Shown here piece by piece: positions 5,240 to 63,817 of a stretch of DNA of 64,000 nt (position 1 is the first letter of the stretch; every line of letters starts with the position of its first letter). Source of the DNA: Variovorax paradoxus EPS (GTDB lineage Bacteria; Pseudomonadota; Gammaproteobacteria; Burkholderiales; Burkholderiaceae_C); the NCBI RefSeq assembly GCF_000184745.1, contig NC_014931.1:682001-746000 (forward strand). Reading direction: 5' to 3'. Position numbers and translations under genes: made by a program. The notes beneath the pieces are model-generated. The model worked only from the letters and a program-made list of their open reading frames with translations, was not told the DNA's origin and made no database searches.

Positions 5240-5468
5240 CGGCGCATCGTTTCGCCCTGGTTGCGTCGAGAAAAACCCAACCGCAGGCTACCGAACCAGC
5301 CGGTGGACCGCACCTCCTTCTCGACGCGCCAACGGCCACCGCACGATCCATCAGCGCACGCCCGCAAAGACATATTTCCCGCTGTTATCGCCCGCTGGTT
5401 CAGCATCAACGCAGCCGGAATTTTTCTAGCATTGGTTCACCATCCAACCAACGCGAACAGGGTTTCAC

Positions 5469-5822: not shown

Positions 5823-5837
5823 CCGGAAAGCGCCGTG

Positions 5838-7274
5838 ATGACAACTGAACTACGCATGAACGACGCCCGCTTCTATATCGATGGATGCTGGCAAGACCGC
5901 ACCGATGCCGCAGGCATTGCGGTCGTCGATCCGTTTACCGAAGAAGTCATCGGGCACGTTGCAGCGGGCTCGTCGACGGATGTGGACCTGGCCGTCGCCG
6001 CGGCCCGGAGGGCTTTCGAAACGTTTTCGCGAAGTTCCGTCGAGGCGCGGCTTGCGCTGCTGGGCCGAATCCTGGCGTTGCTGGAAGAACGCGCGGAGTT
6101 GTTCGCCCAAGCCATCGTGGCGGAGATGGGTGCGCCCATCGGATTCGCCAGGGCCGCCCATGTGCCCTTCGGCATCGCGCATGTTCGCGCGCAGATGGAA
6201 GTGCTTCAGCGCTACAGGTTTCTTTCCTTGGATGGCAGCACCGCGATTTCGAAAGAGCCGATCGGCGTCTGCGCACTGATCACGCCGTGGAACTGGCCGC
6301 TGTATCAGATCACCGCCAAGGTCGCGCCGGCAATCGCCGCGGGTTGCACGGTCGTCCTGAAGCCCAGTGAGTTGTCGCCCTACAGTGCGCAGCTTTTCGC
6401 GCAGGTGATGCACGACGCCGACACGCCGGCCGGCGTCTTCAACCTGGTCGGGGGCAGGGGAGAGGTGGTCGGTGCGGCACTGGCAGCGCATCCCGATGTC
6501 GACATGATCTCCATCACCGGATCGACGCGCGCCGGCGTGCTCGTGGCCCAGGCCGCCGCGGTGACGGTGAAGCGCGTCGTGCAGGAACTGGGCGGCAAGT
6601 CGCCGAACCTGTTTCTGGACGACGCCGATTTCGAACAAGGCGTGGCCAAGGGCGTGCTGGCGGGAATGCGCAACGCGGGCCAGTCGTGCAGCGCGCCGAC
6701 ACGGATGCTGGTGCCCGCGTCGCGCCTGGCCGAGGTGGAAGCATTGGCGCAAGCGGCGGTGATGGGCATCAACGTTGGCGATCCACGCGACGAAAAAACC
6801 TCGATGGGTCCGATCGCAAACGCTGCGCAATATGCGAGGGTGCAGGAGATGATCGCCAGCGGCATAGAAGAGGGCGCCAAGCTGGTCTGCGGCGGTCCGG
6901 GCAGGCCGGCCGGTTTGACGCATGGCTACTTTGCACAGCCGACCGTGTTCTCCAACGTAACGCCCGACATGCGGGTGGCGCAGGAAGAAATATTCGGCCC
7001 CGTGCTGGTCATCATTCCGTATCGGGACGAGCAAGAGGCCATTGCGATTGCGAACGACACGGTCTATGGCCTCGGTGCCAGCGTGCAGTCCGGCGACCGG
7101 GAGCGAGCGCAGCGCGTAGCCAGGCAAATTCGCGCCGGCCAGGTGCACATCAACTATCCGGCGTGGAACAGCCATGCGCCGTTCGGCGGATACAAGCGGT
7201 CCGGCAATGGCCGCGAATACGGCGTCCATGGGCTCGAGGAGTACCTCGAAACCAAGGCCATCCTCGGCTATTGA
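5838..7274 (+). CDS. NAD(P)-dependent aldehyde dehydrogenase
   Basis: A 478-residue member of the aldehyde dehydrogenase superfamily. TPWNWP lies at 149-154, Glu250 in VQELGG is the general base and Cys284 in GQSCSAPTR is the nucleophile. The GQSCSAPTR motif and overall order resemble betaine/gamma-aminobutyraldehyde-type enzymes. The ATG at 5838 has GGAAAG 7 bases upstream; a GTG immediately before it (5835) and an ATG at 5856 are alternatives. It follows the cupin closely and precedes an FAD oxidoreductase. An amine oxidase producing an aldehyde and this enzyme oxidising it is a reasonable reading, but the substrate is inferred only from neighbours. Confidence 0.88.
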   Translation: MTTELRMNDARFYIDGCWQDRTDAAGIAVVDPFTEEVIGHVAAGSSTDVDLAVAAARRAFETFSRSSVEARLALLGRILALLEERAELFAQAIVAEMGAPIGFARAAHVPFGIAHVRAQMEVLQRYRFLSLDGSTAISKEPIGVCALITPWNWPLYQITAKVAPAIAAGCTVVLKPSELSPYSAQLFAQVMHDADTPAGVFNLVGGRGEVVGAALAAHPDVDMISITGSTRAGVLVAQAAAVTVKRVVQELGGKSPNLFLDDADFEQGVAKGVLAGMRNAGQSCSAPTRMLVPASRLAEVEALAQAAVMGINVGDPRDEKTSMGPIANAAQYARVQEMIASGIEEGAKLVCGGPGRPAGLTHGYFAQPTVFSNVTPDMRVAQEEIFGPVLVIIPYRDEQEAIAIANDTVYGLGASVQSGDRERAQRVARQIRAGQVHINYPAWNSHAPFGGYKRSGNGREYGVHGLEEYLETKAILGY

Positions 7275-45821: not shown

Positions 45822-45897
45822 GGCCCGGTAGCTCAGTTGGTAGAGCAGCGGATTGAAAATCCGCGTGTCGGTGGTTCGATTCCGCCCCAGGCCACCA
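45822..45897 (+). tRNA. tRNA-Phe (anticodon GAA)
   Basis: A 76-base tRNA with acceptor GGCCCGG pairing to CCAGGCC (one C-A mismatch, seen in this family), encoded CCA, and anticodon GAA at 45855-45857. It marks the left edge of the accessory island. Confidence 0.97.
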
Positions 45898-45928
45898 ACA
45901 TTACTTTCGCGGTTGTCCGCGTAAGTCC

Positions 45929-49300: not shown

Positions 49301-50715
49301 CTTGGCTCGATGGCATTGACGAGTTGTCCCTGGTTGACCAACTTCCTGCCTGCATCGACAAAAGCGCGGCGTGCGTCGGCCGCGGGAATGAGCGTGCTGG
49401 TGATTCGATTCGCCTGCGCCCCCAACTCGCCAAGGAAATTGTCATGGAAGCCGTGCAACTCCTGTTCGAGGAGCTCGGCGCGCTCGGGCAGTGAAACGTG
49501 TTGCTGGACGAAGGTGCGAAGAACTTCCTCCTTGGTCTGCGGTAGGGCACTGCCAGCTGTGGTCTTGAGCAATGCGGTTAGGTAGAGAGGCGTCGCGATC
49601 AGCTCTCGCAAGCCCTCCGTGCGCCAGGCTTGGTCGACCAGCGCGGCTCCTTCGTCGCCTCTGTGCATGCGCGCTAGTTCCAACTGCTGATCTTCGGAAA
49701 GCGCTTCAATGTGAACCACCGGACTGTCGGCGACGAACAGGTCCGTACGGGTGCCTGCGATCATGCACAGCAGCGGGTAGTCGCGCTGCAACATGCCGAG
49801 CTCCCGAATGGCGCCCAGCCGGGCTTGGGGGGCCAGTTCATTCCAGCCGTCAAGCAGAAGGACAAGGCGGCCTGCATAGGCAAGCTGCATGAAGTGTTGA
49901 GCTGAGAAACCCAAAAACGCGCTGCGGTGCGTAAGGTGCTCAAGGATGCCTTCAGCGCGATCGGACCATTCGCCAAGGGGGACGAGTACGGGCACCGAGC
50001 GCCCTTGCGCAATGATGTTGTCGCAGAGCTGAACGAGGGTGGTTGTTTTTCCCGTACCTGGAGGGGCGACGATCGCGAGAGTTGAGGTGGCCTGCACGCT
50101 CGCAGCCAGGCCGCTGATCGTCACCGGGCGGTGGTCGCCTGACGACTCGAGGGTGAACTGAAGTTGGAGAACATGTTCCGGCCAGCTTCTCGCGCGTCGG
50201 AACGCGGTGATATCCGTGGCTGCCGCTTCCAGCATGCGCTTCGTCGCCGATTCCAGGTCGTCTGCGGCGGGAAGGGAAAGTGCTCTCGCGAATTGGAGAT
50301 CGGCCTCGTCCTCAGGAATCGTTGCGGAGCGCGGCGGTGCCTGTCCGCCGGCCAAGGCTGCCAAGGCTCGCTGCGTTGCCGCCTTTTTCCATTCCTGCAG
50401 AAGCTCGACGGGGTGGCCCTTCACATCGGAATCGATGAGCTTGCCGCAGTTCTGGCAGAGCCAGATGCCGTTGCCCGCCGCCTTGCGATCTGCCGGGCTC
50501 ATCGCCGCGTCATAGCGAGGGCCGCCTGGCGATGCTGCGGCGATGTGAGATGCGACCCCCAGATTCACCGTCCCGCTCTCATCGTCGGCGGGGCCGGCGG
50601 TTGGCCGGCCGCACTTCGGGTTTGAGCAGGAGAAACCCGCTCGAGTAGACAAGAGCCTGACGGTCTGCGCTAAAAAGTTGTCTCGCACTTCGGACGTTCG
50701 ATCTATGGGACGCAA
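46345..50715 (-). CDS. HNH-NACHT STAND NTPase with C-terminal helical repeats (bNACHT/Avs-type immune protein)
   Basis: A 1456-residue protein. Residues 1-115 form an HNH-like zinc module: Cys30-x4-Cys35, His57 in ASHI, then NGIWLCQNC with Cys87 and Cys90. A NACHT/STAND ATPase follows, with Walker A APPGTGKT at 217-224, Walker B LVLLLDG at 284-290, and a sensor-like GTRTD at 321-325. About 900 residues of helical, HEAT/ARM-like repeats (from about 560) end the protein. The layout is nuclease effector, NTPase switch, sensor, as in bacterial NLR-like antiphage proteins. The start is a TTG at 50715 with no clear Shine-Dalgarno; an in-frame stop lies just upstream. No partner gene is adjacent. 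Confidence 0.8.
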   Translation of the reverse strand: MRPIDRTSEVRDNFLAQTVRLLSTRAGFSCSNPKCGRPTAGPADDESGTVNLGVASHIAAASPGGPRYDAAMSPADRKAAGNGIWLCQNCGKLIDSDVKGHPVELLQEWKKAATQRALAALAGGQAPPRSATIPEDEADLQFARALSLPAADDLESATKRMLEAAATDITAFRRARSWPEHVLQLQFTLESSGDHRPVTISGLAASVQATSTLAIVAPPGTGKTTTLVQLCDNIIAQGRSVPVLVPLGEWSDRAEGILEHLTHRSAFLGFSAQHFMQLAYAGRLVLLLDGWNELAPQARLGAIRELGMLQRDYPLLCMIAGTRTDLFVADSPVVHIEALSEDQQLELARMHRGDEGAALVDQAWRTEGLRELIATPLYLTALLKTTAGSALPQTKEEVLRTFVQQHVSLPERAELLEQELHGFHDNFLGELGAQANRITSTLIPAADARRAFVDAGRKLVNQGQLVNAIEPSRALKVLVGVHLLVQSGGAGDNVQFQHHQFQEWYAAQFVEQLMMESASGDQAALAAFRKEILDRPAWEESILFACERMSRSAPAGADAVARAVLLALNIDPMLAAQMIYRSSMAAWQLMRDQIQIFVKKWHSPGKVDRAVRFMIITGKSEFAPLVWPLIASDAENVRVDTMRVAPRFRPSVLGEAAAQQLAGLPDEKRDDIVTLIAEESGFDGMELATSIALTDPNPQVVAEVLQALVFRRADRHVAQILANASNAVWAQVAARLRPEDLEDPAHAARVKAEKNLQADGSPDPIRKLCRLVEAGAHDASSHEEFLQLLQSTNLDRNEHRIYNFLQEGAKTYPQEMAQAFWMQAQRGMRPPVDFAKTLSPHENFDEGGAIADTVLGSTHISELAGIASALASTSSILKILDAILAPEQEGGDKLRVLQTLVAGSRDMAFFTSLLSRAHAANARQAGLMADLLVQRQEGARTRRDIPAEAKSALVGALKQWVDLLLGESMPNREQLATLAQAAGTLGDPQLLPDIDRLLERDQAESARQRELHPARGITSFEQRYRLAFILIGGAAAEQVLAKWLPDLQVGEMAAQGLVEIWLRSQASLEDSWPGSRHKFSQARDLWQQRALAGNTSPTCNSAEAIFRVVRQLLISPSSDEAQRHAIKLAAAGLALPHGDKAAEAASLLELPQPRAFKLKLLTGMARAGLTLPAADLEAALAELLQEAAIQQWRYEEVRDWIELFPFSDRPFAVVDILPTLQGRPLSPDLMDYLLQALSQTPSADALLILEALANLQPKLAKNRHWREAVLQIRSEPAAMLLLKVITDEAAGDSPPAWREARTAAEELSKLAQALPAFGKLLYEEYERQPPGAMKAILEQTLAENRTEEIALAFVRSYGKDARHYGAALANVIEELAVGRKDVEGQSGWFEGFSAPLPEFRRTLFAMTAGGDSTASVASACLDHIERLRDTHGRLMEEPRHPDVDADGVWPVPCGSY

Positions 50716-51010
50716 TGCTGAGCATTAGATCAAAAGTCCTTTTGAGGCCGTCTGCAATGGGGACCGGTCACACCGACCCGCTGGACAGCGATGCCCGCAA
50801 CGAGATCTTCCCGTCGTCAATACTCTATGTGGCGCATGGTTTTGAGAGGGAGCTATCCCGCCGCCTGCCTTCACACATGCGCGCCACCGCCGTTCCGGCC
50901 GATCGAATCGCCGGTCACCGGCGAGGCATTGCTCAAGTGGCTGGATGAGTTGGAACTGCGGGACGTCCCGCTGCCAATGGTCGACAGGACGCCAAGCAGC
51001 GGGGGGCATC
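50716..51010. other. Gap upstream of the HNH-NACHT gene
   Basis: No gene is supported. Contains a 17-base near-perfect palindrome (TCGCCGGT-C-ACCGGCGA, 50908-50924). It may include the promoter of the HNH-NACHT gene; the right end merges into decayed transposase sequence. Confidence 0.4.
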
Positions 51011-51440
51011 ATGTCGTCCCGTCTTGAGAGCGGAATGCCGCGTCTGCGCGCGGCGCTGAGCAGGCACTGCCTGCGCTTGTCGGGGAAGGTGTTCCTGCGC
51101 CTGATGAAGTAGGAGGTCTGGTCGTCGCCAAGCCAAAGCGCCGCCGGTACGACTCCCATCTGGGGGAGATCAGCCTGGCGCCGGAGAACCTACTCGCCCG
51201 CGACTTCACGGCCGCCGCCCCAAATGAGAAATGGCTCACCGACATCTCAGAGCTCCAGATCGCCGCCGGCAAGATGTACCTGTCACCCATGATCGACTGC
51301 TTCGACGGTAGGTCGTCAGTTGGTCGACGGGCAGGCGCGTGGACGCTGAACTTGTAAACACGATGCTGGACGCCGCCATCGAGGCGATTTCCGGTTGCGG
51401 CAAACGGCCTGTCGTCCACTTCGATCGCCGATGGGAAGCA
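51011..51440 (+). pseudogene. Decayed IS3-family transposase (OrfB, IS150-like)
   Basis: Three fragments in different frames read like a DDE transposase. First, RLRAALSRHCLRLSGKVFLRLMK (51038-51112, seen in two parts) stops at a TAG. Then VVAKPKRRRYDSHLGE runs on from 51121, with PNEKWLTDISELQI and KMYLSPMIDCFDG, to a TAA at 51355. Last, DAELVNTMLDAAIEAI and RPVVHFDRRW follow from 51342. These match the IS3-type helix-turn-helix tail and DDE core. At least two frameshifts mean it is inactive; no terminal inverted repeats were identified. Confidence 0.82.
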
Positions 51441-51625
51441 ATCGAGACTTTATTTTTGACCTGTCGGGGTGAACGTCAGCTGGTTGCAGCCAGTCATGCT
51501 TCGGGGAGGAACGGCGGCAAAGGCCGATATCAAATATTGGGTGTCTCAACCCGCTTGCGGCAGCCGCGCTTTGGGATTGAATCCGTGCGACGGCGGGCCT
51601 ACGCCGCGACGAATGACTCGAGCCG
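51441..51625. other. Short gap between transposase remnant and GHKL-Shedu gene
   Basis: No gene is seen. A segment near 51474-51492 (CTGGTTGCAGCCAGTCAT) matches 46231-46248 (CTGGATGCAGCCGGTCAT) in 16 of 18 bases, suggesting a shared degenerate repeat on both sides of the HNH-NACHT gene. Confidence 0.4.
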
Positions 51626-53617
51626 TTAGGCTACCTTTTTTTGAAGATCGGCGATGAGCTCCATACGGGACGAGCCTGCGAACGAGTCGCGCTTCAATTT
51701 AAGTGCGTCAATCATGGCCTGGTTGGTCAGCAGGAAGTTGTCCAGCAACGTGTACCAGTTAAGCACAAAGCGCTTCATGCGCTCGTCGTCGCTGATCAGG
51801 CCAGGCAATCCTTTCGCGACCTGGCCCTGCATGCGACTACGAATCTCTGTGTCCGCCTCGGATATCTTGCGCCCGATCAGAATGAGCTCGAAGTGCATTG
51901 CCTCGCTGTTAAATTCCGCGTGCTTCTTAATGAGCTGTGCATAGCCATCGAGTTGCTGGAGGTGCTTGTAGTTAAGCGCGATGCTTGGGCGCTTGATCTC
52001 CACCACGATGCAACGATAAATCTTGCGGCCCATCGAATCGTGGTGCGGAACCTTGCGGGCGAGAAACAAATCCGTCTGCTTGCTCGCGCCCTCGATGGCT
52101 GCGGATTCATTTACTTCCAAGTCGTCCAGGGTAATGTCGTCGATCCCCTTGACCGCGTCGCGAAGCGATTTGGCGATCTTGGTGAACGTATCCTCCTCGG
52201 CCCCAAGCGTCTCGTAGGAGCTGCCAAAAAGCCAAGTGTTGGCCTCGATGATTCCTTGCAAGTCCGGCGTCTCGAGCGTCTCCAAATAGTGGTCGTTCAT
52301 CAGCGTCCGCAGCTTGTCGGCTACCTCGTGCCTACGGCGGAGAACTTCGATCGCTGACACGATGCTTTGCAGCGATACGCTCTTGAGCTGCTTGGCGAAC
52401 AGCTTAGTCGAGACTTCGTCGAGATCCAGCACGCTGTTGAGCACCTCGAAGATGGCGTCGTTCTCGTTCGAGATCGCCAGCTTGTCGAGGAGCCGAACGA
52501 TGATCTTTTTCTGGTTCTTCTTTAGCGACTTCAACGCCGTCGGATCGGCGGTGTAGATGGCGCGCAGGATGCTCTTGGTGTTCTCAAAGCGCCAGTTCTT
52601 GTAGTCCTCCGGCAGGCCCGCGTAGGTAGGAAAGACGCCGTCGGCGACGTAGCCTTCAATCTCCCGCTCGAACTGCTTGCGCAGAAAGTCCTCATACACA
52701 GACTTGGTGATCTTGTTGAGCTCGCGCGCCACCTTTCGCCACGTCTCCGACTCGAAGCCCGTCGCATCTGGGCTGGCCAAGTCACCTCCGCTCGGCTCGA
52801 AAGCGTCAACCCACTTTGAGCCGACGTAGATGCTGGTGTGGAAGTCCCCCTTGTGGTTGAAGGTGCTCAGCCTCTTATCAACTGTCTTGCCCGAAGAGTT
52901 CAAGAGATAGACGTAGGACTTCTCAGAGCCTGGTTTTAGGTCCCAGCGAAGGACCGACACTTCGAAGTCATGGCCGTCGATGGAGAGCTTGCGCTGTGTG
53001 AGGTCGTGCGACGGTACCGCCACCTCCGTCTCATTAAGGCGGAGTTTCTTCGTGGGATTGAGTCCGAGGAACCAACCGAACTCGATGGAAAGCAGCTTAT
53101 GAAGTTCCGCGGTGGTCGGCAGTGCAGCATGTAGGTTGAACAGTTCCGCGGTCGTGCCGGTCTTGCCTACGTCCATCCCTGCGGGCAATGCCGACGACTC
53201 CACTGACCAGCCCTCATATTTCGTGAGCGCCGCGCCGTTCACTTCGATCCGCGCGGGTCCCGATCCGGCCGCATTCGTCCACCAAACGGCTCGTTCGGCG
53301 AGTCTGTGAAAGGACAGTCTGCCGCGACCATGTGAGCCATGCGTCGTCACGTCCTCCTTCTTACTCGAGTCGTTGAATCGGCCAAACGTTTCGGCATGCG
53401 TCTCGAGCTCAATGCCTTCTCCGTCATCGGAGACATCCACTCGCGTCGCGCCGCCCATCGGGCCCTCGTCAACCAGCACTCCGACATTAAGCGCCTTGGC
53501 GTCGAAGCCATTCCAAACCAACTCGGCAATCGCGCGCCACGGATCGGTGGTTCGAAAATGCTTCTTGATTCCCTCCCCGTTGAGTTCCGTCTTTCCTGAG
53601 ATTTGTCGAGTCGCCAT
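51626..53617 (-). CDS. GHKL ATPase fused to Shedu-like PD-(D/E)XK nuclease
   Basis: A 663-residue protein on the minus strand. The N-terminus is a Hsp90/MutL-type GHKL ATPase: N-box E32-x3-N36-x2-D39 in AELVWNGFDA, G1 DDGEGI at 64-69 and G2 GSHGRGR at 94-100. A linker/transducer follows. The C-terminal third starts with EANTWLFG (458-465), as in Shedu/DUF4263 proteins. It then has Asp516 in KQTDLFLAR and E540-I-K542 in VVEIKRP, a D-x23-E-x-K nuclease site. A coiled or helical tail ends the protein. Such an architecture could couple ATP-driven dimer closure to DNA cutting. It is alone, with no visible partner gene, between an IS remnant and the Gabija-like pair. Fold calls are by motif; activity is inferred. 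Confidence 0.78.
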   Translation of the reverse strand: MATRQISGKTELNGEGIKKHFRTTDPWRAIAELVWNGFDAKALNVGVLVDEGPMGGATRVDVSDDGEGIELETHAETFGRFNDSSKKEDVTTHGSHGRGRLSFHRLAERAVWWTNAAGSGPARIEVNGAALTKYEGWSVESSALPAGMDVGKTGTTAELFNLHAALPTTAELHKLLSIEFGWFLGLNPTKKLRLNETEVAVPSHDLTQRKLSIDGHDFEVSVLRWDLKPGSEKSYVYLLNSSGKTVDKRLSTFNHKGDFHTSIYVGSKWVDAFEPSGGDLASPDATGFESETWRKVARELNKITKSVYEDFLRKQFEREIEGYVADGVFPTYAGLPEDYKNWRFENTKSILRAIYTADPTALKSLKKNQKKIIVRLLDKLAISNENDAIFEVLNSVLDLDEVSTKLFAKQLKSVSLQSIVSAIEVLRRRHEVADKLRTLMNDHYLETLETPDLQGIIEANTWLFGSSYETLGAEEDTFTKIAKSLRDAVKGIDDITLDDLEVNESAAIEGASKQTDLFLARKVPHHDSMGRKIYRCIVVEIKRPSIALNYKHLQQLDGYAQLIKKHAEFNSEAMHFELILIGRKISEADTEIRSRMQGQVAKGLPGLISDDERMKRFVLNWYTLLDNFLLTNQAMIDALKLKRDSFAGSSRMELIADLQKKVA

Positions 53618-54256
53618 GCTAAGTATCTGAGTTGTTCATCTCGCCCGTGCGAGGTGCGGGCGAGTTCAGCATGCAGTTTAGTGGCCTAGAGCGTCGAGAC
53701 GCCGAAAACCGACCCTTCGTTTCTCCGGGCAAGAATGGCTGGCGAGGGGAAGTTGAATCGAATGCATCGCATGTCGATCGGCGGTAGTAGCGTCGGCATC
53801 ACTTCTTTTCCTGGCTATCCGGTTGCTGGCCTGAAAGGAATGCACCGATGAGTGCCATCGGTTGATCCCTTGGCCTGCGGACCGCACACGCCTGCTACTG
53901 GAGAGCCGCCATAAAGCATTCTTTCCTTTGCGGCAGGTCGTGAGATTGCGAGCCACGCGTCCGTATGGAATAGCTGCTTCGGTTTTAACCGGTCAACAAG
54001 AGTTGCTGTCCAAGCGGCCGCAACCGCTGCATAGCAGCCGCCATCGGCGTGGCCGTCTGGCATTCGTTCATGGCGTAAGGCCGGCTGTGCCTGCAGTCCG
54101 CCCATGACGCATTCCGAGACCAAGACGGCAGGCATATCGCGATTGCGAGGTGCCGACGCCGCTCGCATAACATTGGGGTCTGATTGAGGTGCCGCGCCTG
54201 GGAGGGCGGCCCTCGAAGTCGACCCGTGTGCCGAAGCGAAAAAACTGGGAGCGAGG
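53618..54256. other. Long divergent intergenic region
   Basis: No supported gene in 639 bases. The DNA is moderately GC-rich and full of short degenerate repeats (for example GCAGCCGC and GGCCGCAACCGC segments near 54020-54050). It separates the minus-strand GHKL-Shedu gene from the plus-strand Gabija-like pair, so both promoters should be here; none can be named with confidence. Confidence 0.5.
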
Positions 54257-55822
54257 ATGCCAACGATTGAAAGGCTGGTGCTGTCGAACTTCAAGAAGTT
54301 CGACAACTTGGAACTCGAGTTTGATCCGGAGCTGAACCTCCTCATCGGGGACAACGAGGCGGGGAAAAGCTCAGTGCTGCTGGCGCTGGAACTTGTGATG
54401 AGCGGAAGTCGCAGCAGGGTCGAAACCATCGGACTCGAGACGCTACTCAACGCCGACGCTGTCAGGGCATTTCAGGCAGGGCCATGTACCGTAGGCCGAC
54501 TACCGGAACTGTTCGTTGAGGTCTACCTCTCGGCCGACAAAAAGCCTGGCCTGAATGGAAAGAACAACTCTAAGGTTCTCGAGCGTGACGGGCTGCGCAT
54601 GTCGTTTGAGCCGATTCTCGACTTCAGCAAGGACATCGCTGAAGCGCTGAAGGAAGACCCGACCAACTTCCCCTTCGAGTACTACGGCGTCCAGTTCTAT
54701 ACGTTTGGGGGCGAGGCGTATTCCAGCGTCAAAAGGCACGTCCGACACCTGGCAATCGATAGCTCCAGAATCGACAGCGAGTATGCGGCGCGGGAATACA
54801 CCCGTTCGGTGTTCGCGATGCACGTGGACGTCGGGAACCGGAGCAGGCTCGAGAACGCCTATCGACAAAGCAAAGGCGGATTCGAGAACGCCCAACTGAG
54901 GGAGCTGAACGACAAACTGGTGGACTACAAGTTCGGCGTGCGCACGAGCGCAAAGGCCAACCTGGAGTCCGACCTGGTCATCACCGAAGACGAGATCCCC
55001 ATCGAGAGTAAGGGCAAGGGGCGGCAGTGCTTCATCAAGACTGAGTTCGCGCTGAGTAAGAAGGGCGTAAAAAGTGGCCTGGATGTCCTGCTCCTAGAGG
55101 AACCTGAGAACCACCTGAGCCACGCGACGATGCACCAGCTCATCGAGCGAATCGCTCAATCGGTGAACAAGCAACTGTTTATCGCAACTCACAGCAGCCT
55201 GATCTCCGCTCGGCTTGACTTGCGCAAAGCCATCCTGCTTGGAGAGCAAGGTCAGCAGGCGCGGCTCAACAAGCTCCCATCTGACACCGCGAAGTTCTTC
55301 ATGAAAGCGCCTGATAACAACGTCCTCGAGTTTGCGCTGTCGAGAAAGGTGATCCTCGTGGAGGGCGATGCCGAGTTCATCCTCCTGGATGCGCTCTACC
55401 AAAAGCACTCAGGGTCCACGTTGAGGAAGGACGGTGTCCACGTCATCTCGGTGGGAGGTACGAGCTTTAAGCGCTATCTAGACCTCGCCAAGCTGCTGGG
55501 CGTGCGCACTGCGGTCATTCGCGACAACGACGGCGACTACCAGAAGAACTGCGTCGACAACTATGCAGAGCACATGATGCCGCATGCCAAAGTCTTTGCA
55601 GACGCCGACTACAAGCAACGAACAACCTTCGAGATCTGTCTGTACGAAGACAACAAGGCCGTTTGCGACGAGGTCTTCCGCAAGCCAAAGCGTAAGCTTG
55701 AGCCGTTGGCGTACATGCTCGCCAACAAGGCTGACGCCGCGTTTGACCTCCTGCTGGCGAAGGAGGCCGAGCTGGTGGCCCCTGGGTACATGCAGGAGGC
55801 CATCAAGTGGATAAACGAGTAG
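54257..55822 (+). CDS. OLD-family ATPase-TOPRIM nuclease (GajA-like)
   Basis: A 521-residue class 2 OLD-type protein. The N-terminal ABC-type ATPase has Walker A GDNEAGKSS at 31-39, a weak signature near GKGRQCF, Walker B DVLLLEEPENHL at 276-287 and the switch His in ATHSS. The TOPRIM half has Glu369 in VEGDAE and Asp423/Asp425/Asp427 in DNDGD, the metal ligands of the nuclease. It overlaps a UvrD-like helicase gene by 16 bp. ATPase-TOPRIM plus UvrD-like helicase in tandem is the hallmark of Gabija, in which GajA nicks DNA when nucleotides are depleted. A start at ATG 54257 with GAGCGAGG upstream is well placed. Confidence 0.85.
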   Translation: MPTIERLVLSNFKKFDNLELEFDPELNLLIGDNEAGKSSVLLALELVMSGSRSRVETIGLETLLNADAVRAFQAGPCTVGRLPELFVEVYLSADKKPGLNGKNNSKVLERDGLRMSFEPILDFSKDIAEALKEDPTNFPFEYYGVQFYTFGGEAYSSVKRHVRHLAIDSSRIDSEYAAREYTRSVFAMHVDVGNRSRLENAYRQSKGGFENAQLRELNDKLVDYKFGVRTSAKANLESDLVITEDEIPIESKGKGRQCFIKTEFALSKKGVKSGLDVLLLEEPENHLSHATMHQLIERIAQSVNKQLFIATHSSLISARLDLRKAILLGEQGQQARLNKLPSDTAKFFMKAPDNNVLEFALSRKVILVEGDAEFILLDALYQKHSGSTLRKDGVHVISVGGTSFKRYLDLAKLLGVRTAVIRDNDGDYQKNCVDNYAEHMMPHAKVFADADYKQRTTFEICLYEDNKAVCDEVFRKPKRKLEPLAYMLANKADAAFDLLLAKEAELVAPGYMQEAIKWINE

Positions 55823-56868
55823 TCTTCGCGGTCGCAGGCTCAGGGAAGACGACCCGCCTTATCAACGAACTGGATCTTGCGAAGCGGGTCTTGCTCATCA
55901 CCTACACAGACAGTAACTGTGAAGAAATTCGTCGCCGCGTTCTTGCAAAGTTCGGGTATCTCCCGGACAACATCACCGTCTGCACCTACTTCACATTCTT
56001 GAACTCGTTCTGCTATCGACCCCTGCTTCTGATGAAGATGCAGACCATGGGAATTTCGTTCGATAGGCCGAGTGAGTACTCATCGCGCCAGAAGCTCGAG
56101 AGCCGTGACCGGTACGTCACAACAGGCGGCCGCATCTACCACGCGAGAATGGCGAAGGTCTTGGATGTGCATGATTGCATTCCGACGCTCCAGCGTCGAC
56201 TGGAGCGCTACTACGACAAAGTCTGCATCGACGAGGTTCAGGATTTCGGCGGACATGACTTCAATCTGCTCAAGCAGATTGTCCAGGCCAACGTCGAGGT
56301 TCTGTTAGTCGGTGACTTCTATCAGCACACGTACTCCACCAGCGCTGATGGCGCGGTCAACAAAGGGCTGCACGACAGTTATGACCGCTTCAAGGATGCC
56401 TTGCGATCTGCCGGCTTGGTGGTTGACACGACGTCCTTGCTCAAGAGCCACCGCTGCAGTTCCTCAGTGTGCTCGTTCATCCGAGACAACATCGGTGTGG
56501 ACATCTATGCGCACTCGGATCGCACCACCCAAGTCTCAGTCGTCCACGAACCATCACTGGCGGCAGAGCTCCACGCTGCTGCAGGCACTATTAAGCTGTT
56601 TTATCAAGAGCACGGACGGTACGGCTGCTACTCGCAGACCTGGGGCGACTCAAAGGGGCGCGACCACTATCAGGACGTCTGCGTCGTCCTGAACGCCGAG
56701 TCTTGGAAGCACTTCTCGTCAGGTACGCTGACCGAGATGGCTGCGACCTCACGGAACAAGCTATACGTCGCGTGCTCGCGTGCGCGCGGCGACCTCTATG
56801 TGATGCCGGACACGATGCTGAAAGTGTTCAAAAAAGCCCGGGATGTTCGTCACGTCCGCTCAGCTTGA
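55807..56868 (+). CDS. Compact UvrD-like helicase (GajB-like)
   Basis: A 353-residue superfamily 1 ATPase. Walker A AGSGKTT lies at 10-16, Ia is YTDSNCEEI (33-41), motif II is IDEVQD at 141-146 with Asp142/Glu143, motif III is GDFYQH at 169-174, a IV-like SHR is at 214-216 and VI is SRNKLYVACSRAR at 315-327. The 1B and 2B insertions of full-size UvrD/Rep (about 700 residues) are reduced or absent, so it is shorter than typical GajB (about 490). Start at GTG 55807 inside the upstream gene (16-bp overlap), which means coupled translation. Paired with the OLD-type gene it fits a Gabija-like system. Confidence 0.82.
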   Translation: MDKRVVFAVAGSGKTTRLINELDLAKRVLLITYTDSNCEEIRRRVLAKFGYLPDNITVCTYFTFLNSFCYRPLLLMKMQTMGISFDRPSEYSSRQKLESRDRYVTTGGRIYHARMAKVLDVHDCIPTLQRRLERYYDKVCIDEVQDFGGHDFNLLKQIVQANVEVLLVGDFYQHTYSTSADGAVNKGLHDSYDRFKDALRSAGLVVDTTSLLKSHRCSSSVCSFIRDNIGVDIYAHSDRTTQVSVVHEPSLAAELHAAAGTIKLFYQEHGRYGCYSQTWGDSKGRDHYQDVCVVLNAESWKHFSSGTLTEMAATSRNKLYVACSRARGDLYVMPDTMLKVFKKARDVRHVRSA

Positions 56869-57198
56869 ACATCTTGACTGCGCGGCCCCCAGCCCTTCCG
56901 CTCGGAATGGCAGGTCCGCCATGAACTGCTTCGATAGTGGCGGTCGTTCGAGTCCTCGCCGTGACCGACAGCAGCCGCTGCGCAGTCCTTCGCGTACGCA
57001 CGCGTCAGACTGGGAGCGGAAACTGATCGTGACCAATTCATAGTCGCCGATCGGCTAAAAGCAGGCGACCTTCCCTTGCCTATCACGCGCTTCTGGGGAA
57101 GTCCATCGCGCATGCCGGCTATGGGTCGGACCGTTCTATTTGATATGCTGAATCGAATTGTTGCAGCGGGCTTCCGCGGCGAAATTTGGAGGAACATC
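56869..57198. other. Gap between Gabija-like pair and Wadjet-like operon
   Basis: No gene is supported over 330 bases. The last 60 bases turn AT-rich and include TTGATATGCT (57140-57149), a possible extended -10, leading into the AGGAGG-type site before the short leader ORF. No terminator with a T-run was recognised after the helicase gene. Confidence 0.4.
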
Positions 57199-57231
57199 AT
57201 GCAGAACGGCCGCGGGGCGCCGCACCCGTGA
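57199..57231 (+). CDS. Ten-codon leader ORF coupled to jetA-like gene
   Basis: ATG at 57199 with GGAGG 6 bases upstream, ending in TGA at 57229-57231. The peptide is ten residues (M-Q-N-G-R-G-A-P-H-P). Its last bases form GTGA, where GTG (57228) is the in-frame start of the jetA-like gene. The only good Shine-Dalgarno in this area belongs to this mini-ORF, so it looks like a translational coupler. Alternatively, jetA could start at TTG 57186 and the mini-ORF be chance. Confidence 0.45.
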   Translation: MQNGRGAPHP

Positions 57232-58691
57232 GAGAGCCTTCGCTTCCCGCAGGCGCCCTCGATTCCAGCCGAAGCAACGCCGGGCTGCTGGACTTATCGC
57301 GCCAGCAGAGGAACGTGCTGCTCTTTCGGCCCATGTTTCAGTTGGAACGATCCAAGGCACTTGTGCTGGAGGCCGACGGCTCTAGCCCGTTCGATGGCGT
57401 TGACACCCATTATTTGGCGCTGTCGGCACTGGATCACATGATGGAGGCCACAACGATCTCCATGGGCAGTATGTCGTCCGAGGTGCTGCAGCATGTCGCT
57501 GACACGGCCGCCCGTATGCGTCCTAGCTTGACTTTGACCCAGGCGCAGAGGGTGGCCACTGCCGTCCTCGACGCCCTGGACAACAAAGCCAACAAACACC
57601 GGGAATTCGAGGCCGAATACTTTGACGCCCCTTCCGGAAGCGTGCGGATGTTCCGGTTCCGGCTGGTGCAGTTCCAGCCGGATCCCCAGGATGTCTACCG
57701 GTACACCCCCACCGCCGAGGGATACCTTGTGTACCTGGGCATGCTGGACCTGTCGCCGGAGGACTCCCAGGAGCTGATGGAGAAGATGTTGGACCTGCTA
57801 GTCCGGCGCGGTCGGTTCGAGGCGGCGCTGGACATTGCCCGGCGCGCCCGGAAGCTCTCCATTGAATTCCGCCAGCTGATTAGCGACAAGCTGCATCAGG
57901 CATACCGGGCCCCGTCGTCGGTGAACTGGAGCAAGGAGATGCAGGGCCGGCTGGCTGAGGCCCGCAAACACGTCAGCGACCGTCAGGCGGAGGATTTCCG
58001 AATGGAGCAGGCAGTCGGCGACGCGCTTCACGAAGCTACAGAACTACATACTCGGGAAAACTTGGTGCTGCTGCGAGAAACTCTGCGCGGCGCCGGCGAC
58101 ATCCGGATGAAGCTGGTACGGGACATCTCCGCCTCCAACGAGCTGTTTATTGCAGCCCAGAAGGCTGCCTTCCGGGCGCGCCGGCCCATGGGGTTGCCAG
58201 ACCTCGAAAGCGTTATCTTCCCTAACGTCATGCAGCTGCACTCGCCGGTGCTGCTGGCCGAGGCCGACAACTTCCTCTGTGCCCTGTATCCGCCCCAGCC
58301 GCTGAAGATGTTCGACCTGAACACCGCCTTCACGATCCTGCGGGAGACCCGTACCAACGATACGCCCTCAGCGGAGAACGAGGGTGAGCTGGAGCAGTTC
58401 AACCCCGTTCCCGACCCCTTTCCCAAAGCCCTCGTGGACGAGGCTCGCAACTGGCTCGCGGCCAAGTTCGAAACGGACGCCACCTGGCAGGCGGATTTCC
58501 TGCTCGAGCTCGCGCGCGAAGACGGCCTTTCTGCGGCGTCCCAGCGCTGCCTAGTCTTCATCCTCTACCAGTCCTTTGCCCAGAGTGAGAGCACCTTTGA
58601 GGGTATGGCGTCACGCAAGAGCGGCGAGGAGTTCATCCTGGACTTTGTACGCGGCGACAACCTCGAATTCTTCAAGAAAGACGGCCAGTGA
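57228..58691 (+). CDS. jetA: Wadjet JetA-like (MksF/kleisin-type) subunit
   Basis: About 487 residues with no catalytic motif I can recognise; largely helical, with a helical C-terminus. It is the first gene of a four-gene set (about 490-, 242-, 1463-residue and a following TOPRIM-like gene) that matches the JetABCD order of Wadjet plasmid-defence SMC systems. There JetA is the MukF/MksF-like kleisin that bridges the SMC heads. Its stop overlaps jetB in GTGA. The start is uncertain (GTG 57228 versus TTG 57186). It does not look like DUF3375 (type I) or DUF2397 (type II), so a type III-like origin is favoured. Assignment rests on operon order and size, not direct motif. Confidence 0.7.
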   Translation: MREPSLPAGALDSSRSNAGLLDLSRQQRNVLLFRPMFQLERSKALVLEADGSSPFDGVDTHYLALSALDHMMEATTISMGSMSSEVLQHVADTAARMRPSLTLTQAQRVATAVLDALDNKANKHREFEAEYFDAPSGSVRMFRFRLVQFQPDPQDVYRYTPTAEGYLVYLGMLDLSPEDSQELMEKMLDLLVRRGRFEAALDIARRARKLSIEFRQLISDKLHQAYRAPSSVNWSKEMQGRLAEARKHVSDRQAEDFRMEQAVGDALHEATELHTRENLVLLRETLRGAGDIRMKLVRDISASNELFIAAQKAAFRARRPMGLPDLESVIFPNVMQLHSPVLLAEADNFLCALYPPQPLKMFDLNTAFTILRETRTNDTPSAENEGELEQFNPVPDPFPKALVDEARNWLAAKFETDATWQADFLLELAREDGLSAASQRCLVFILYQSFAQSESTFEGMASRKSGEEFILDFVRGDNLEFFKKDGQ

Positions 58692-59416
58692 ACGGACCAG
58701 AACCATCGGTCAAGAACGCGGCGACATTGATCTACAAGGCGCTGCAGACAAGCCTAACGACCGCCGGCGACACCGAGTACCGGGAGCTGGCCGCGCTGTT
58801 TCGCGTGGACGCAAGTTTCCGGCGAATGTGCGAGGACGTGGCCACCGGGCTTACCTTGCAGATCATTGACGCCAGCGAGCTGCGCGGGCTGGTGCTCGTG
58901 CCTCAATCGAAGGACAGCCGCTTTGCCGTGCGGCTAGGCGATATCCGTGCGCACGGCATGGAGCAGCCTCACCGGGTCGCCCTGGTGTTAGCGCACATCT
59001 CAATCTGTGCGGCGTTCTATCCAACCAGCGAGTCGCTCGACGACGACAGCCTGATCCCGCCACCAGTGACGATCGCAACCTGCCGCGACACCCTTTATAG
59101 CCTCGCGCAACGCCTGAAGGACGCCAATCCGCTGCCTGCGGACATCCCGCTGGACTTAGCACCGGGCTGGGAGGCGGTATGCGCGCTTCCTCAAACCCTG
59201 CGCGAAAGCGTCCGCGCAGCTCCGTCCTCGGGTGCAGGTATCGTGAAGATCGCGTTGAACCAGATGGTGGAAGGCGGCCTCGTGCGGCTTGATCGGGGTA
59301 CAGAGGATGACCCGCAGGCCAGCTACACCGCCACCCACCGCCTTCGCGTGCAGTTGCGGGAGATCGCACTGCGCCGCCTGTTCGAGATGGCCCAGCTCTG
59401 CACGGCCCGTCGCTAG
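58688..59416 (+). CDS. jetB: Wadjet JetB-like (MksE/KITE-type) subunit
   Basis: A 242-residue protein with no catalytic motif, the size expected for the MukE-like KITE subunit JetB. It begins with GTG in a 4-bp overlap with jetA and ends 9 bases before jetC. A winged-helix-like segment near the C-terminus (AGIVKIALNQMVEGGLVRLDRG) fits a KITE fold. Its part is to bind the kleisin and DNA next to the SMC heads. Identification is by order and length. Confidence 0.65.
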   Translation: MNGPEPSVKNAATLIYKALQTSLTTAGDTEYRELAALFRVDASFRRMCEDVATGLTLQIIDASELRGLVLVPQSKDSRFAVRLGDIRAHGMEQPHRVALVLAHISICAAFYPTSESLDDDSLIPPPVTIATCRDTLYSLAQRLKDANPLPADIPLDLAPGWEAVCALPQTLRESVRAAPSSGAGIVKIALNQMVEGGLVRLDRGTEDDPQASYTATHRLRVQLREIALRRLFEMAQLCTARR

Positions 59417-59425
59417 GAGAAGACC

Positions 59426-62400
59426 ATGCAGCGAATTAGTCGCTTTTATTTGGGGCACTGTGGCTACCGCACGGCTTGGTTTGATGGGGAGATCCTGCCG
59501 CTGACCGACCCGATCACCGACGCCCCCACCGACGCCATCCTCCATTTGGAGAACGGCGGCGGCAAAACGACCTTAATGAGCTTGATCTTTTCTTGCTTCG
59601 AGACCGAGCAGAACAAGTTCTTGAAGCACCTTCAAGAGGCGAACAACCGCTTCTCGCAGTACTTTGACCAGACCGGCATCCCAGGCTTCATTGCCGTGGA
59701 ATGGGTGCTGCCGTCCCGCACGGCCAAAGGAAAACCGATCCGCCTCGTTGTGGGGCAGGCAGTGTCCGTGCGTGCCACCGTGGAGCCGGCGGATGTCGAT
59801 AGGATCTTCTTTTCGTTCCAGGAACAGGCTGACCTGCGGCTGGAAAACCTTCCGGCGCCGCGGCTCGGCCCGACGCCTGCCGCTAGTCTCGCCGAAGTGT
59901 CCCGGTGGCTGCAGGAGCAGAAGGCAGCCAACCCCGACGTCTTCTTCGTCAAGAACCAAGCGGAGTGGAAGAGGCACCTGCAGGTCGACCGGCTGATCGA
60001 CCTGGAAATGCTGCAGATGCAAGTGGGGTTTTCGGCGCAGGAGGGAGGCTTCGACGCCTTCATCCGCATGAAGAATGAGTCCGAGTTCATTCACCGGTTC
60101 TTCTCCCTCACGCTGGACACCACCCGCGCCGATGAGGCGCGCAAGCTCGTGGTCGAGGTCTGCGAAAAGCACAGTCGCAAGCCCGAGTACCAGGCCCGTC
60201 ATAGCCAACTGACTCTCTTCAGGAGCCAGATGTCCACGTTCGCGGACGCATCCCGCGCCTATTTGGACTCGGTAGCGCAGCAGGGGCAGATCCAGCTTCA
60301 GGGCGCCCTGACTAGCCTCGCATTGCAGAAGCGCCAGGTCACATCCGCAGAAGCAGAGAAGGAACATCGCCGGGAGGAGCAGCTGCAGTTGCAGATTCGC
60401 CAACTTGCCGACGCCGAGGGCGGCCGGCTGGCGCGGGAGTACACGACGGCATTGCACGTGCTGCACCAGAAAAAACAAGCGATGGCCAAGTTCGAGCGCG
60501 AAGCCGCGGACAAGCAGGTGAACGACCTGCAGGACAAGGAGCGGTTCGTGCGCGCCGCTGTTCTCCAGAAGGACATCCTTGCCTGCGAGCAGCGGATCAA
60601 GGACCTCGAGGCCGTGGCAGAGGCCCAGGCGGAAGGCCTGAAGCCAATCAAGGATCATGCTGAAGTGCAGGGCTCCTTGTTGCGCGCGGCCCTGTTCCTG
60701 GAAGAAACCCGGCTGACCCGGCTGCTGCAGGACCTGACCACCAAGCAGAAGATCAGGCACGACCTTCGCGGAACGCTCGGTGAGGCTCGCGACGATGCCG
60801 ACCGGAAAGAGCGAGCCCTGGCGCAGGAGCAGTCGAACCTGAATGGCGCCGAGGCCCGTCGAGCCCAGCGCCTGGACGCTTTTGTAGCGGAGGGCCTCAT
60901 CGAGTCCGTGGAGAGGGATGCGAGCGCTGCGGCGGTCAATTGGCAGCATGCGGTTGTGCAGCACCAACGCGACCGCGAGAGCCACCACGCCACGCGCCGG
61001 CAACAGCGGGAGACCGCCAAACAGTTGCGCCGCGAATCCAGGGCCGAGACGGAGCGGGCGGTGCAGCTGGAGCAGGACGTACGCCGGCTGCAGGAGCTCA
61101 TCGCGCAAGGAGAGCACGCGCGGGAGGCTCTGTCGCAGCATCCCGCGTTGACGGAAGCAGCGGAGGCAGACCTCGCCGATCCGTTCTCGCCAATCCTTCA
61201 CCAGCGGCTGGCCACGCTAGTGGCCTCCTACAGTCGCCAGATCGCGACGATCGACGTCCGATATGCAGAGCTGAACCTCACCAAGAGCGCGATCGAGAGC
61301 ACGGGCGTTGCCGGCGCCGGTGCCGAGGTGGCCCACGTGGTGCGCGTGCTGCGGGACGCTGGGGTCCGGTCTGCTCGTCCGTTCAACGAGTACCTGGCCG
61401 AAACAATCAAGGATGCGGAGCGGTCCAGAGCATTGGTCCAGAGCGACCCGGGGCGCTTTCTGGGCGTGTGCGTCGCCCGGACTGAATTCGAGAAGGCCGC
61501 CGGCGTGGCATGGACCGGCCGGCTGCCCCGCAAGCCCGTCACGGTGTCCGTGGCCAGCCTGGATCCAGCAGCGCCTCAAGCCGACCGCTGCGTGGTTGTC
61601 GCCGAGGACGATTCGGCCTTCAACACCGCGGCTGCCGCACAACTCGCCCCGAAGCTCGCCGCGGCCATGGACGCGGACAGCCAAGAACGCAAGGCATTGG
61701 AAAAGCGGTATGAGCGCTGCGTAAAGGCACAGCAGGAGCTCGAGTCCTTCTTGGCCACCTATGGGGAAGGGCGCCTGGCGGAAGCTCATGCTAAGGAGCA
61801 AGTCACCGCCGAGGACTCGCAGGCAACCCGAGCGCGCGCCGCGAGCCTGGACGAAGACGCTGTCCGGCAGGAGGCGGCCGCTGAAGAAAGCGAAGAAAAG
61901 GCGAGACAGAGCGAGGAACAGCGCGCCGCGGCTGCGGAAGCCATGCGCCGAGTGGAAGAATTCATTCGGGACCACGATGCCGGTCGAGCCCAACGCCTGC
62001 ATCGCCTCGGTGAATTGCCGGCCCTGATCGCTGCCGCAGAGGAAGACCGCGCGGCTGCGGTCGTTGAACTGGAAGAACTGATGGTCGAGGAATCGACGGA
62101 CGCGACGGTGCGGGCCGAAGAAACGGTTAAGCGCGATGGCATGGCCACGGAGCGCGGCCAGATCGAGTACTACGACAAGAACTACGACGCGGCGAAGCAC
62201 CTGAAGGAGCATCCGCGCGCCCTGGACATCCTGCGCGGCCAGTACAAGGACGCCGCATCGATCTATCGCACTAAGGAGGAGGATGTACTGGGCAAGCTCC
62301 ACGAAAAGCTTCAAAGTGAGCGGGACAAGAAGACCGAGAAGGCCAACCAATTCGCCAAGACCTGCAAGGGTGTGACGGCCACGGACATGAAGCCGTACCT

Positions 62401-63817
62401 GCATGTCGATCACGATGCTGTACTGCGGGAAACGAGCAGTGAGATGGAGCAGGCCCGCGGCACGCAGGTCGACAAAAAAACGATCGAGCAACTAGCGATA
62501 AGGGACGCCGAGCGCTGGTACGCCAGCAACAAGAGCCTCGTGAACGCTCCGCCGAATCCTGCGATCGTCGCCATGGGGGTTGATGACCTGCAGGGCGAGG
62601 TTGCTCGTCTCGACGAACTGCATAGAGTTGAGGTGACTCGCTCCGAGACGGCAATTGAAGCCGGCAAGCGGGCACGACTGCGTGCCGAGGAAAAGAAGTC
62701 GCAGGCCGATATGGATCAGAACGCCGACCAAATGCTTTGCGGCGCCCTGGGCCTCACCGAGCAGACTACCGTCGTGCAGATCGTGGCCGAAACACACGCG
62801 CTGACCGGCCTAACTCTCGACGCTGGAGACCCCGTCGTTCTGGAGCAACCTGCCGCCGCGCAGGTCGCTGCCTTGGGCAGGTCGTACGGGCAGAAGGGCG
62901 CGGCTGTGAAGAAGCTTGGCAACAAGGCGCGTGAGGAATTCGACGACCTCAAGCAGGCAGCTGCATCACCAGATTTCGCCAAGGCGGATGCGGCCGTTGC
63001 GCAGCAGATGCAGGTCAATAGCTTCGAAGACACGTGCCGCGCGGCTGAGAAGATCCTGACCGCCCTGGATGATCGCATCTCTACCACCAAGTCCACTCTC
63101 GACACCATGCAAGCGGATTTCGACGCTTGCATCGAGGAGGTGACCGAAGTCGTGCGCATCGCCATCTCGACCCTGAACAAGGCGACCAGCTCCGACAAGC
63201 GCGTGCCAGCCGGCGCCCCGTACATCGGGGGCAAGCAAGTGCTGCGGATGCGGGCGAACTTCAGCAACATCAACACGGATCTGCGAAAGCAACGGATGCG
63301 TGATTACCTTGACATCCTGGCCGCTAGCAAAGCAATTCCGGTGACCGGCACGGACCTGATCTCTGAATCGGTGATGCGTGTGTACGGCGCCCCGCTCGGC
63401 ATCCAGATGCTCAAGATGTCGGTGGAGGAAACGGAGCAGTACGTGGTCGTCGACCGGATCTCGAACTCGGGAGGGGAGGGTGTGGTTATGGCCATGTTCC
63501 TGTACCTGCTGATCAACGAGCTGAGGGCAGAAAATTACGCCAGCGTCCAGAAGTCCGCCGGGGGGCCGCTGCTGCTGGACAATCCGTTCGCAAAGGTCAC
63601 CTCGGGGGCCATGTGGAAAGCCCAGCGCCTGCTGGCCGCCTCAATGGGGGTGCAACTCATCTTCGCGACCGCGGTAGAGGACTACAACGCGTTGGCCGAG
63701 TTCAACCGATTCGTGCGCCTGCGTAAGGCCGGACCCCATACCGGAACGAGACGCTGGCACCTGGAGGTAGCCAATTACACCTTCACGCCGAAACACGAGG
63801 AGGCACCGGCTACGTGA
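59426..63817 (+). CDS. jetC: Wadjet JetC-like SMC ATPase
   Basis: A 1463-residue SMC-like motor. The N-terminal head has Walker A ENGGGKTT at 42-49. From about 280 to 1200 the protein is rich in Glu, Gln, Lys and Arg with heptad-like spacing, two coiled-coil arms around a hinge near 550-800. The C-terminal head carries the ABC signature SNSGGEG at 1346-1352. The Walker B region GGPLLLDNPFA follows, where the residue after Asp1385 is Asn1386, not the usual Glu; FATAVEDY supplies the switch region. It is longer than typical type I JetC. Start ATG 59426, with AGGAG upstream. JetC-type motors extrude DNA loops and drive plasmid cleavage by JetD. Confidence 0.82.
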   Translation: MQRISRFYLGHCGYRTAWFDGEILPLTDPITDAPTDAILHLENGGGKTTLMSLIFSCFETEQNKFLKHLQEANNRFSQYFDQTGIPGFIAVEWVLPSRTAKGKPIRLVVGQAVSVRATVEPADVDRIFFSFQEQADLRLENLPAPRLGPTPAASLAEVSRWLQEQKAANPDVFFVKNQAEWKRHLQVDRLIDLEMLQMQVGFSAQEGGFDAFIRMKNESEFIHRFFSLTLDTTRADEARKLVVEVCEKHSRKPEYQARHSQLTLFRSQMSTFADASRAYLDSVAQQGQIQLQGALTSLALQKRQVTSAEAEKEHRREEQLQLQIRQLADAEGGRLAREYTTALHVLHQKKQAMAKFEREAADKQVNDLQDKERFVRAAVLQKDILACEQRIKDLEAVAEAQAEGLKPIKDHAEVQGSLLRAALFLEETRLTRLLQDLTTKQKIRHDLRGTLGEARDDADRKERALAQEQSNLNGAEARRAQRLDAFVAEGLIESVERDASAAAVNWQHAVVQHQRDRESHHATRRQQRETAKQLRRESRAETERAVQLEQDVRRLQELIAQGEHAREALSQHPALTEAAEADLADPFSPILHQRLATLVASYSRQIATIDVRYAELNLTKSAIESTGVAGAGAEVAHVVRVLRDAGVRSARPFNEYLAETIKDAERSRALVQSDPGRFLGVCVARTEFEKAAGVAWTGRLPRKPVTVSVASLDPAAPQADRCVVVAEDDSAFNTAAAAQLAPKLAAAMDADSQERKALEKRYERCVKAQQELESFLATYGEGRLAEAHAKEQVTAEDSQATRARAASLDEDAVRQEAAAEESEEKARQSEEQRAAAAEAMRRVEEFIRDHDAGRAQRLHRLGELPALIAAAEEDRAAAVVELEELMVEESTDATVRAEETVKRDGMATERGQIEYYDKNYDAAKHLKEHPRALDILRGQYKDAASIYRTKEEDVLGKLHEKLQSERDKKTEKANQFAKTCKGVTATDMKPYLHVDHDAVLRETSSEMEQARGTQVDKKTIEQLAIRDAERWYASNKSLVNAPPNPAIVAMGVDDLQGEVARLDELHRVEVTRSETAIEAGKRARLRAEEKKSQADMDQNADQMLCGALGLTEQTTVVQIVAETHALTGLTLDAGDPVVLEQPAAAQVAALGRSYGQKGAAVKKLGNKAREEFDDLKQAAASPDFAKADAAVAQQMQVNSFEDTCRAAEKILTALDDRISTTKSTLDTMQADFDACIEEVTEVVRIAISTLNKATSSDKRVPAGAPYIGGKQVLRMRANFSNINTDLRKQRMRDYLDILAASKAIPVTGTDLISESVMRVYGAPLGIQMLKMSVEETEQYVVVDRISNSGGEGVVMAMFLYLLINELRAENYASVQKSAGGPLLLDNPFAKVTSGAMWKAQRLLAASMGVQLIFATAVEDYNALAEFNRFVRLRKAGPHTGTRRWHLEVANYTFTPKHEEAPAT

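Follow-up and report, generated by a model that had tools for sequence, protein, structure and literature searches.

Two published accounts frame the gene described here, which encodes a 663-residue protein in Variovorax paradoxus EPS and lies within a 64,000-nt stretch of the chromosome (NC_014931.1:682,001-746,000, forward strand). We call this stretch the window and use its numbering throughout; values above 64,000 lie beyond it. In 2008, Iyer, Abhiman and Aravind defined paraMORC3, in which a GHKL plus S5 module is followed by a C-terminal restriction-fold domain with an E-D-ExK signature (PMC2292703). The family was described as prevalent in proteobacteria and bacteroidetes, with a standalone subset that has no conserved neighbors, while paraMORC families in general were mostly tied to restriction-modification operons (PMC2292703).

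The second account concerns VcSduA from the Vibrio cholerae WASA lineage (Nat Microbiol 2025, PMC12137116), the one experimentally tested GHKL-Shedu member in the literature we found. VcSduA joins GHKL to DUF4263, is a single gene on a genomic island, and gives protection from Drexlerviridae in E. coli and from phage X29 in V. cholerae. The E27A and K557A mutations each abolish defense, and the protein is reported to act independently of neighboring genes. It protects at all multiplicities of infection tested, a result its authors interpret as direct restriction that leaves the host alive. They modeled an entwined dimer, hypothesized that the ATPase controls the nuclease, linked such proteins to paraMORC3, and credited the term "type I-D" Shedu to Gu et al. 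2025 (PMC12137116). A 2026 review reports that EcSduA senses DNA ends and that Shedu systems can be toxic in foreign hosts; GHKL is not mentioned in the passages of it used here (PMC12904381). The Variovorax gene quite probably encodes a single-gene antiphage nuclease of the same GHKL plus Shedu-like kind, carried as cargo by a defense element inserted in a tRNA-Phe gene.

A GHKL ATPase and a nuclease in one chain

A single intact open reading frame of 663 codons fills positions 51626-53617 on the minus strand, with its ATG at 53617, and the plus strand read from 51626 is interrupted by stops. An earlier, sequence-only reading of the window had proposed a GHKL ATPase and a Shedu-like nuclease in this one chain, and all the residues it quoted lie where it placed them. 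Sequence and predicted models show, from N- to C-terminus, a GHKL ATPase, a middle domain, a long stalk of helices and a PD-(D/E)XK nuclease, and the two active sites are intact (Table 1). The three motifs of the GHKL superfamily, ExxxNxxD, DxGxG and GxxGxG, sit within a matching fold. In the model this fold spans residues 3-315 and resembles MORC, MutL and Hsp90/TRAP1, which bears out the proposed N-terminal half. Residues 204-266 are beta-rich, residues 11-315 of the model align to TRAP1 at a root-mean-square deviation of 5.7, and the Foldseek rows include GyrB-43K and MORC. MORC, MutL and Hsp90/TRAP1 are not known to carry a PD-(D/E)XK nuclease domain.

Like paraMORC3, the window protein combines GHKL with a C-terminal restriction-endonuclease-fold domain carrying E-D-ExK, and it stands alone; the match is to the published description of the family. 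It also shares with VcSduA a single chain with GHKL motifs, a middle domain and a C-terminal PD-(D/E)XK nuclease. By motif, E27 and K557 of VcSduA correspond to E32 and K542, and the distance between them is 530 residues in VcSduA and 510 in the window protein (477-538 in the class as sampled). VcSduA is described with DUF4263 whereas the window protein falls short of that Pfam model; our comparison of the two covers motif spacing and description. VcSduA was not seen by name among 120 listed homologues of L037, a more distant relative discussed below. The sequence-only reading had regarded an ATP-gated clamp-nuclease of this layout as a plausible new mode. That claim falls: the layout was predicted in 2008 (PMC2292703) and its antiphage activity shown in 2025 (PMC12137116), which rules out a novel architecture.

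No sigma-70-like site emerged from a promoter scan of 50700-54300. The interval has 7 terminator-like sites where 3.1 are expected, and none of them has a clear placement.

Table 1. Positions of the GHKL-nuclease gene, its predicted domains, and other features of the element that carries it.
Feature	Position	Strand	Remarks
tRNA-Phe gene, attachment site	45822..45897	+	ARAGORN
15-bp direct repeat, left copy	45884..45898	+	at end of tRNA-Phe gene
NACHT/STAND-like protein, 1456 aa	46345..50715	-	N-terminus like PDC-M68A and SAVED-HNH effectors; C-terminal NCAB2
IS3-family transposase remnant	51045..51427		between NACHT and GHKL-nuclease genes; ~79% identity, query 330-712
GHKL-nuclease gene, 663 aa	51626..53617	-	predicted GHKL ATPase + middle/stalk + PD-(D/E)XK nuclease
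PD-(D/E)XK nuclease (predicted), residues 443-663	51629..52291	-	E458, D516, E540-x-K542, WxFG motif
Helical linker/stalk (predicted), residues 316-442	52292..52672	-	DSSP on models
Middle region (predicted), beta-rich, transducer/S5-like, residues 201-315	52673..53017	-	
GHKL (Bergerat) ATPase domain (predicted), residues 1-200	53018..53617	-	E32, N36, D39, D64xGxG68, G94xxGxG99
GajA-like ATPase-TOPRIM	54257..55822	+	PADLOC GajA 3.5e-109
GajB-like UvrD-type helicase, short	55807..56868	+	PADLOC GajB 5.5e-52
Wadjet JetA	57186-58691	+	PADLOC 7.2e-243
Wadjet JetB	58688-59416	+	PADLOC weak (0.004)
Wadjet JetC	59426-63817	+	PADLOC E 0
Wadjet JetD	63814-64818		PADLOC 2.6e-94; extends outside window
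Tyrosine integrase gene	81542-82873		Pfam 1.2e-16
15-bp direct repeat, right copy	82926-82940 (L085:18926-18940)		just past integrase gene

The nuclease core is related to SduA

The Shedu-like character proposed for the C-terminal half is upheld by profile comparison. With hhalign, the nuclease aligned to SduA at 93%, with a score of 55.9 over 94 columns. Thirty column-shuffled SduA alignments scored at most 16.6, HSDR_N_2 reached 33.1, and Mrr_cat reached 18.6. The control sets are small (12 rows for HSDR_N_2, of which 2 are empty and 2 short; 13 rows for Mrr, of which 2 are empty), since some loci stop short or gave a different frame. The SduA set held 14 of the 19 places above the cut-off; L035, L073, L080 and L082 were omitted, and L083 was moved to the fusion set.

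Standard family models barely register this kinship. Pfam SduA_C (PF14082, DUF4263) matched nothing in the genome at E<=0.001, was absent from an hmmscan of the 663-residue protein at E<=1, and, for 44 homologues, did not appear in the 25 families shown out of 47. The PADLOC SduA model (PDLC00401) matched 28 of those 44 at E<=0.1, at best with 4.5e-4, and on the window protein itself a REase_II model (0.0018, to the GHKL part) ranked above it. Shedu structures were among the best structural rows for the nuclease; the nuclease model alone gave no Foldseek match at E<=0.001. Overall, the nuclease core is homologous to SduA, though beyond the reach of the Pfam SduA_C model. Canonical SduA (B. cereus 8ti8/8ti9, E. 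coli 8ps5) shares with it the W-x-F-G helix, the Asp and the ExK core. The window protein differs in falling below the Pfam threshold and in having a GHKL ATPase as its N-terminal half, where EcSduA has an N-terminal clamp (PMC12904381). Since the Pfam and PADLOC models used miss or barely touch the nuclease of this subfamily, catalogues that rely on them may under-count it.

Both active sites are conserved

We compared 114 homologues, which remained from 120 listed of 634 after six outside 630-720 residues were dropped. All 12 key residues are retained in 111 of them, and the nuclease residues E458, D516, E540 and K542 in all 114. The three exceptions replace E32 with Gln (two proteins) or N36 with Ile (one) and lose nothing else. 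The two Gln proteins (P0114 and P0115) could be natural forms that bind ATP and cannot hydrolyze it, or sequence errors. Against the homologues at L001, L002 and L003, the ratio of nonsynonymous to synonymous substitution rates is 0.068-0.080 overall and 0.050-0.130 in the ATPase, middle and nuclease parts, by a simple Nei-Gojobori count in which synonymous divergence is 0.44-1.66, with the upper values near saturation. Both active sites are under purifying selection. In a more diverse set of 21 GHKL-nuclease proteins, E32, N36, D39, D64, D516, E540 and K542 are invariant and E458 is present in 15.

A 28-row tree, midpoint-rooted and with several deep branches long and unsure, places the window protein in a well-supported clade of 11 (Burkholderiales-type proteins, one from an Acinetobacter and one from a Micavibrio). 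Outward lie proteins of Bacteroidota, Clostridia and Deinococcus, then a plasmid/phage group, and then the L037 and L083/L084 groups. The window protein belongs to a separate, patchily distributed subfamily. The L037 subfamily (P0122-P0241) resembles it in joining GHKL to an ExK nuclease with aligning catalytic positions but forms a separate deep branch. It accounts for 2926 matches among 7995 scored candidates, and SduA_C in L037 stays under the cut-off (22.5 bits versus 27).

The gene is cargo of an integrative element

The sequence-only reading had set the gene between an insertion-sequence remnant and Gabija and Wadjet systems, and these neighbors are confirmed (Table 1). The entire defense cluster forms a 37-kb integrative element inserted in tRNA-Phe; it is bounded by 15-bp repeats, encodes an integrase, and has empty sites in relatives. 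The two copies of the repeat lie 37,042 bp apart. Among 40 relatives searched besides the genome itself, seven have an empty site (G810, G818, G819, G823, G825, G826 and G833), in which the tRNA-bearing left flank joins the right flank with an overlap of 12-15 bases. Eleven junctions were read. In five, the tRNA is followed immediately by right-flank sequence (69-75% identity versus 39-47% for the element interior), and four are unclear (55-58% for the right flank versus 43-46%). The remaining two, L106 and L108, are closer to the interior (67% and 56%); other elements may be present there. The carriage of this gene by a tRNA-Phe element, together with the NACHT, Gabija-like and Wadjet genes, is new here, as are the nuclease-free Sphingobacterium forms described below.

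The other cargo includes an HNH protein, a DUF3800 protein, a GT4-conflict/B12/radical-SAM protein, PDC-M65A/B-like proteins and AlpA. The radical-SAM protein has 1405 residues (69686-73903; L085:5686-9903), combines GT4-conflict (9.6e-81) with B12-binding and radical SAM domains, and lies near the PDC-M65A/B-like genes. The Gabija-like pair is short (521 and 353 residues), and its genes overlap by 16 bases. The NACHT/STAND-like protein matches Pfam NCAB2 at 1.1e-19 and PADLOC PDC-M68A at 6.8e-24, with NACHT itself reaching only 0.029. A blastp relative of it (L003:4968-9698), which had no PADLOC match at 1e-5, adjoins the homologue in Bordetella ansorpii in the opposite gene order. We rejected a two-gene module with the NACHT-like protein: the pairing occurs in only 2 of 25 loci, and its order is reversed in L003.

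Homologues are sporadic and mobile

Across 300 genomes of the order, full-length matches occur in two, the genome itself and G399, and partial matches reach the nuclease part in G250, G305, G359 and G373 (among the matches listed). At E<=0.001, 222 of the 300 genomes match, and most listed matches span only about residues 26-180 or less; we infer that these are MutL and other GHKL proteins and counted full-length matches alone. Within the genus, one of 100 other genomes matches at 1e-20, with 26% identity. Relatives are found on 31 of 72,556 plasmid records, all below 60% identity and 16 covering at least 80% of the query. Two of 50,697 phage records (both Pasteurella) and four IMG/VR contigs hold relatives as well. 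In Pasteurella phage Pmp14 (L087), the relative at 4941-6899 has 25% identity and is flanked by tail genes. Homologues are therefore sporadic and carried on mobile elements.

Neighbor families occur in at most 4 of 25 loci, the one found in four being integrase-like, in agreement with the sequence-only reading that the gene has no partner and with the standalone subset of paraMORC3. Because length was the criterion for choosing neighboring open reading frames, genes that are small or overlap others may have escaped notice. Six neighbor families common to all three Acinetobacter loci reflect one lineage. We ran PADLOC on 10 neighbors picked by size from 415. Four are clear defense proteins (HsdM, RT-Toprim, DRT UG5-nitrilase and RT-Protease), one is a RecD-like helicase with weaker matches, and five had no match at 1e-5. 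Drt2 and a LlaMI-family restriction enzyme neighbor a further relative (L089), and an abortive-infection gene lies at another distant-relative locus. Some homologues lie in settings other than defense. The homologues at L011, L015 and L018, all Acinetobacter, lie beside metG (identified by Pfam in L011 and by blastp kinship in L015 and L018), and that at L019 lies beside gyrB. The Acinetobacter metG position is perhaps a fixed insertion spot.

At 7 of 31 homologue loci (L023-L029, all Sphingobacterium), the proteins are 422-450 residues long and align to the window protein only as far as residue 399-412, near the stalk/nuclease junction. Four nuclease-domain queries found no nuclease domain in these loci (tblastn, 1e-3). 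The GHKL motifs are retained, with the DNGxG pattern unmatched in L028, and no common neighbor lies within 5 kb at the thresholds used.

Proposed function and alternatives

We regard the protein as a relative of known defense enzymes because its layout matches VcSduA and its gene sits on a mobile element with defense genes. Its most likely function would be that of an ATP-gated nuclease acting against phage DNA; antiphage action, dimerization and ATP control are inferred from relatives. In such a scheme the protein would form a dimer, and ATP binding would shut the N-terminal gate, with E32 as catalytic base and N36 and D39 contacting the nucleotide. On phage DNA or at DNA ends the protein would adopt this closed state and thereby release the nuclease (E458, D516, E540 and K542) to cut the phage DNA; the host would survive, as it reportedly does with VcSduA (PMC12137116). 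ATP-gated clamp action is a hypothesis for VcSduA and the window protein alike. A bolder version is possible, though we hold it tentatively: the protein may be a topological DNA clamp that licenses the nuclease when it closes, with ATP turnover, rather than a partner or methyl mark, setting self from non-self, and the nuclease-free Sphingobacterium homologues may be the freed clamp, a MORC-style silencer.

Other roles have to be weighed. The protein could be a restriction-type enzyme with a linked or unlinked methylase or helicase, in which looping between the recognition site and the cutting site is driven by GHKL; the same has been proposed for other paraMORCs. The common association of paraMORC families with restriction-modification operons fits this role (PMC2292703). 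It stays alive because methylase and helicase genes lie near distant plasmid relatives: L089 is near dcm and the LlaMI-family enzyme, L090 is near a DNA methyltransferase, and L091 directly follows a DEAD/DEAH helicase. Another distant relative, L037, is beside an apparent C5-methyltransferase (its motif recognized by eye). We nevertheless find it unlikely, given that the most widespread neighbor family, at 4 of 25 loci, is integrase-like, that paraMORC3 includes a standalone subset (PMC2292703), and that VcSduA is reported to work independently of its neighbors (PMC12137116). An abortive-infection effector, which once triggered would cut the host chromosome and kill the host, is likewise improbable. 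The toxicity possible for Shedu in foreign hosts could hint at one (PMC12904381), but protection by VcSduA at every multiplicity of infection tested was read as restriction that spares the host (PMC12137116).

We give least credence to a MutL-like housekeeping protein of DNA repair, which is very improbable despite the GHKL similarity to MutL, the metG and gyrB genes adjoining some loci, and "DNA mismatch repair protein" as the source name of 6 of the 120 listed homologues. The gene is missing from nearly all sampled genomes of the order and genus, it or its relatives are carried on an integrative element, plasmids, phages and IMG/VR contigs, and defense neighbors occur; on this distribution and genomic context we reject a MutL-type repair gene. 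Moreover, its C-terminal half is a PD-(D/E)XK nuclease, from which the C-terminal endonuclease of MutL differs.

As a likely single-gene antiphage nuclease, the window protein offers an independent test case for gating of a nuclease by its ATPase, alongside VcSduA. The nuclease-free Sphingobacterium forms provide a natural separation of the ATPase and nuclease parts. If the clamp reading is true, the protein would be a self-contained sensor that detects DNA topology or DNA ends.
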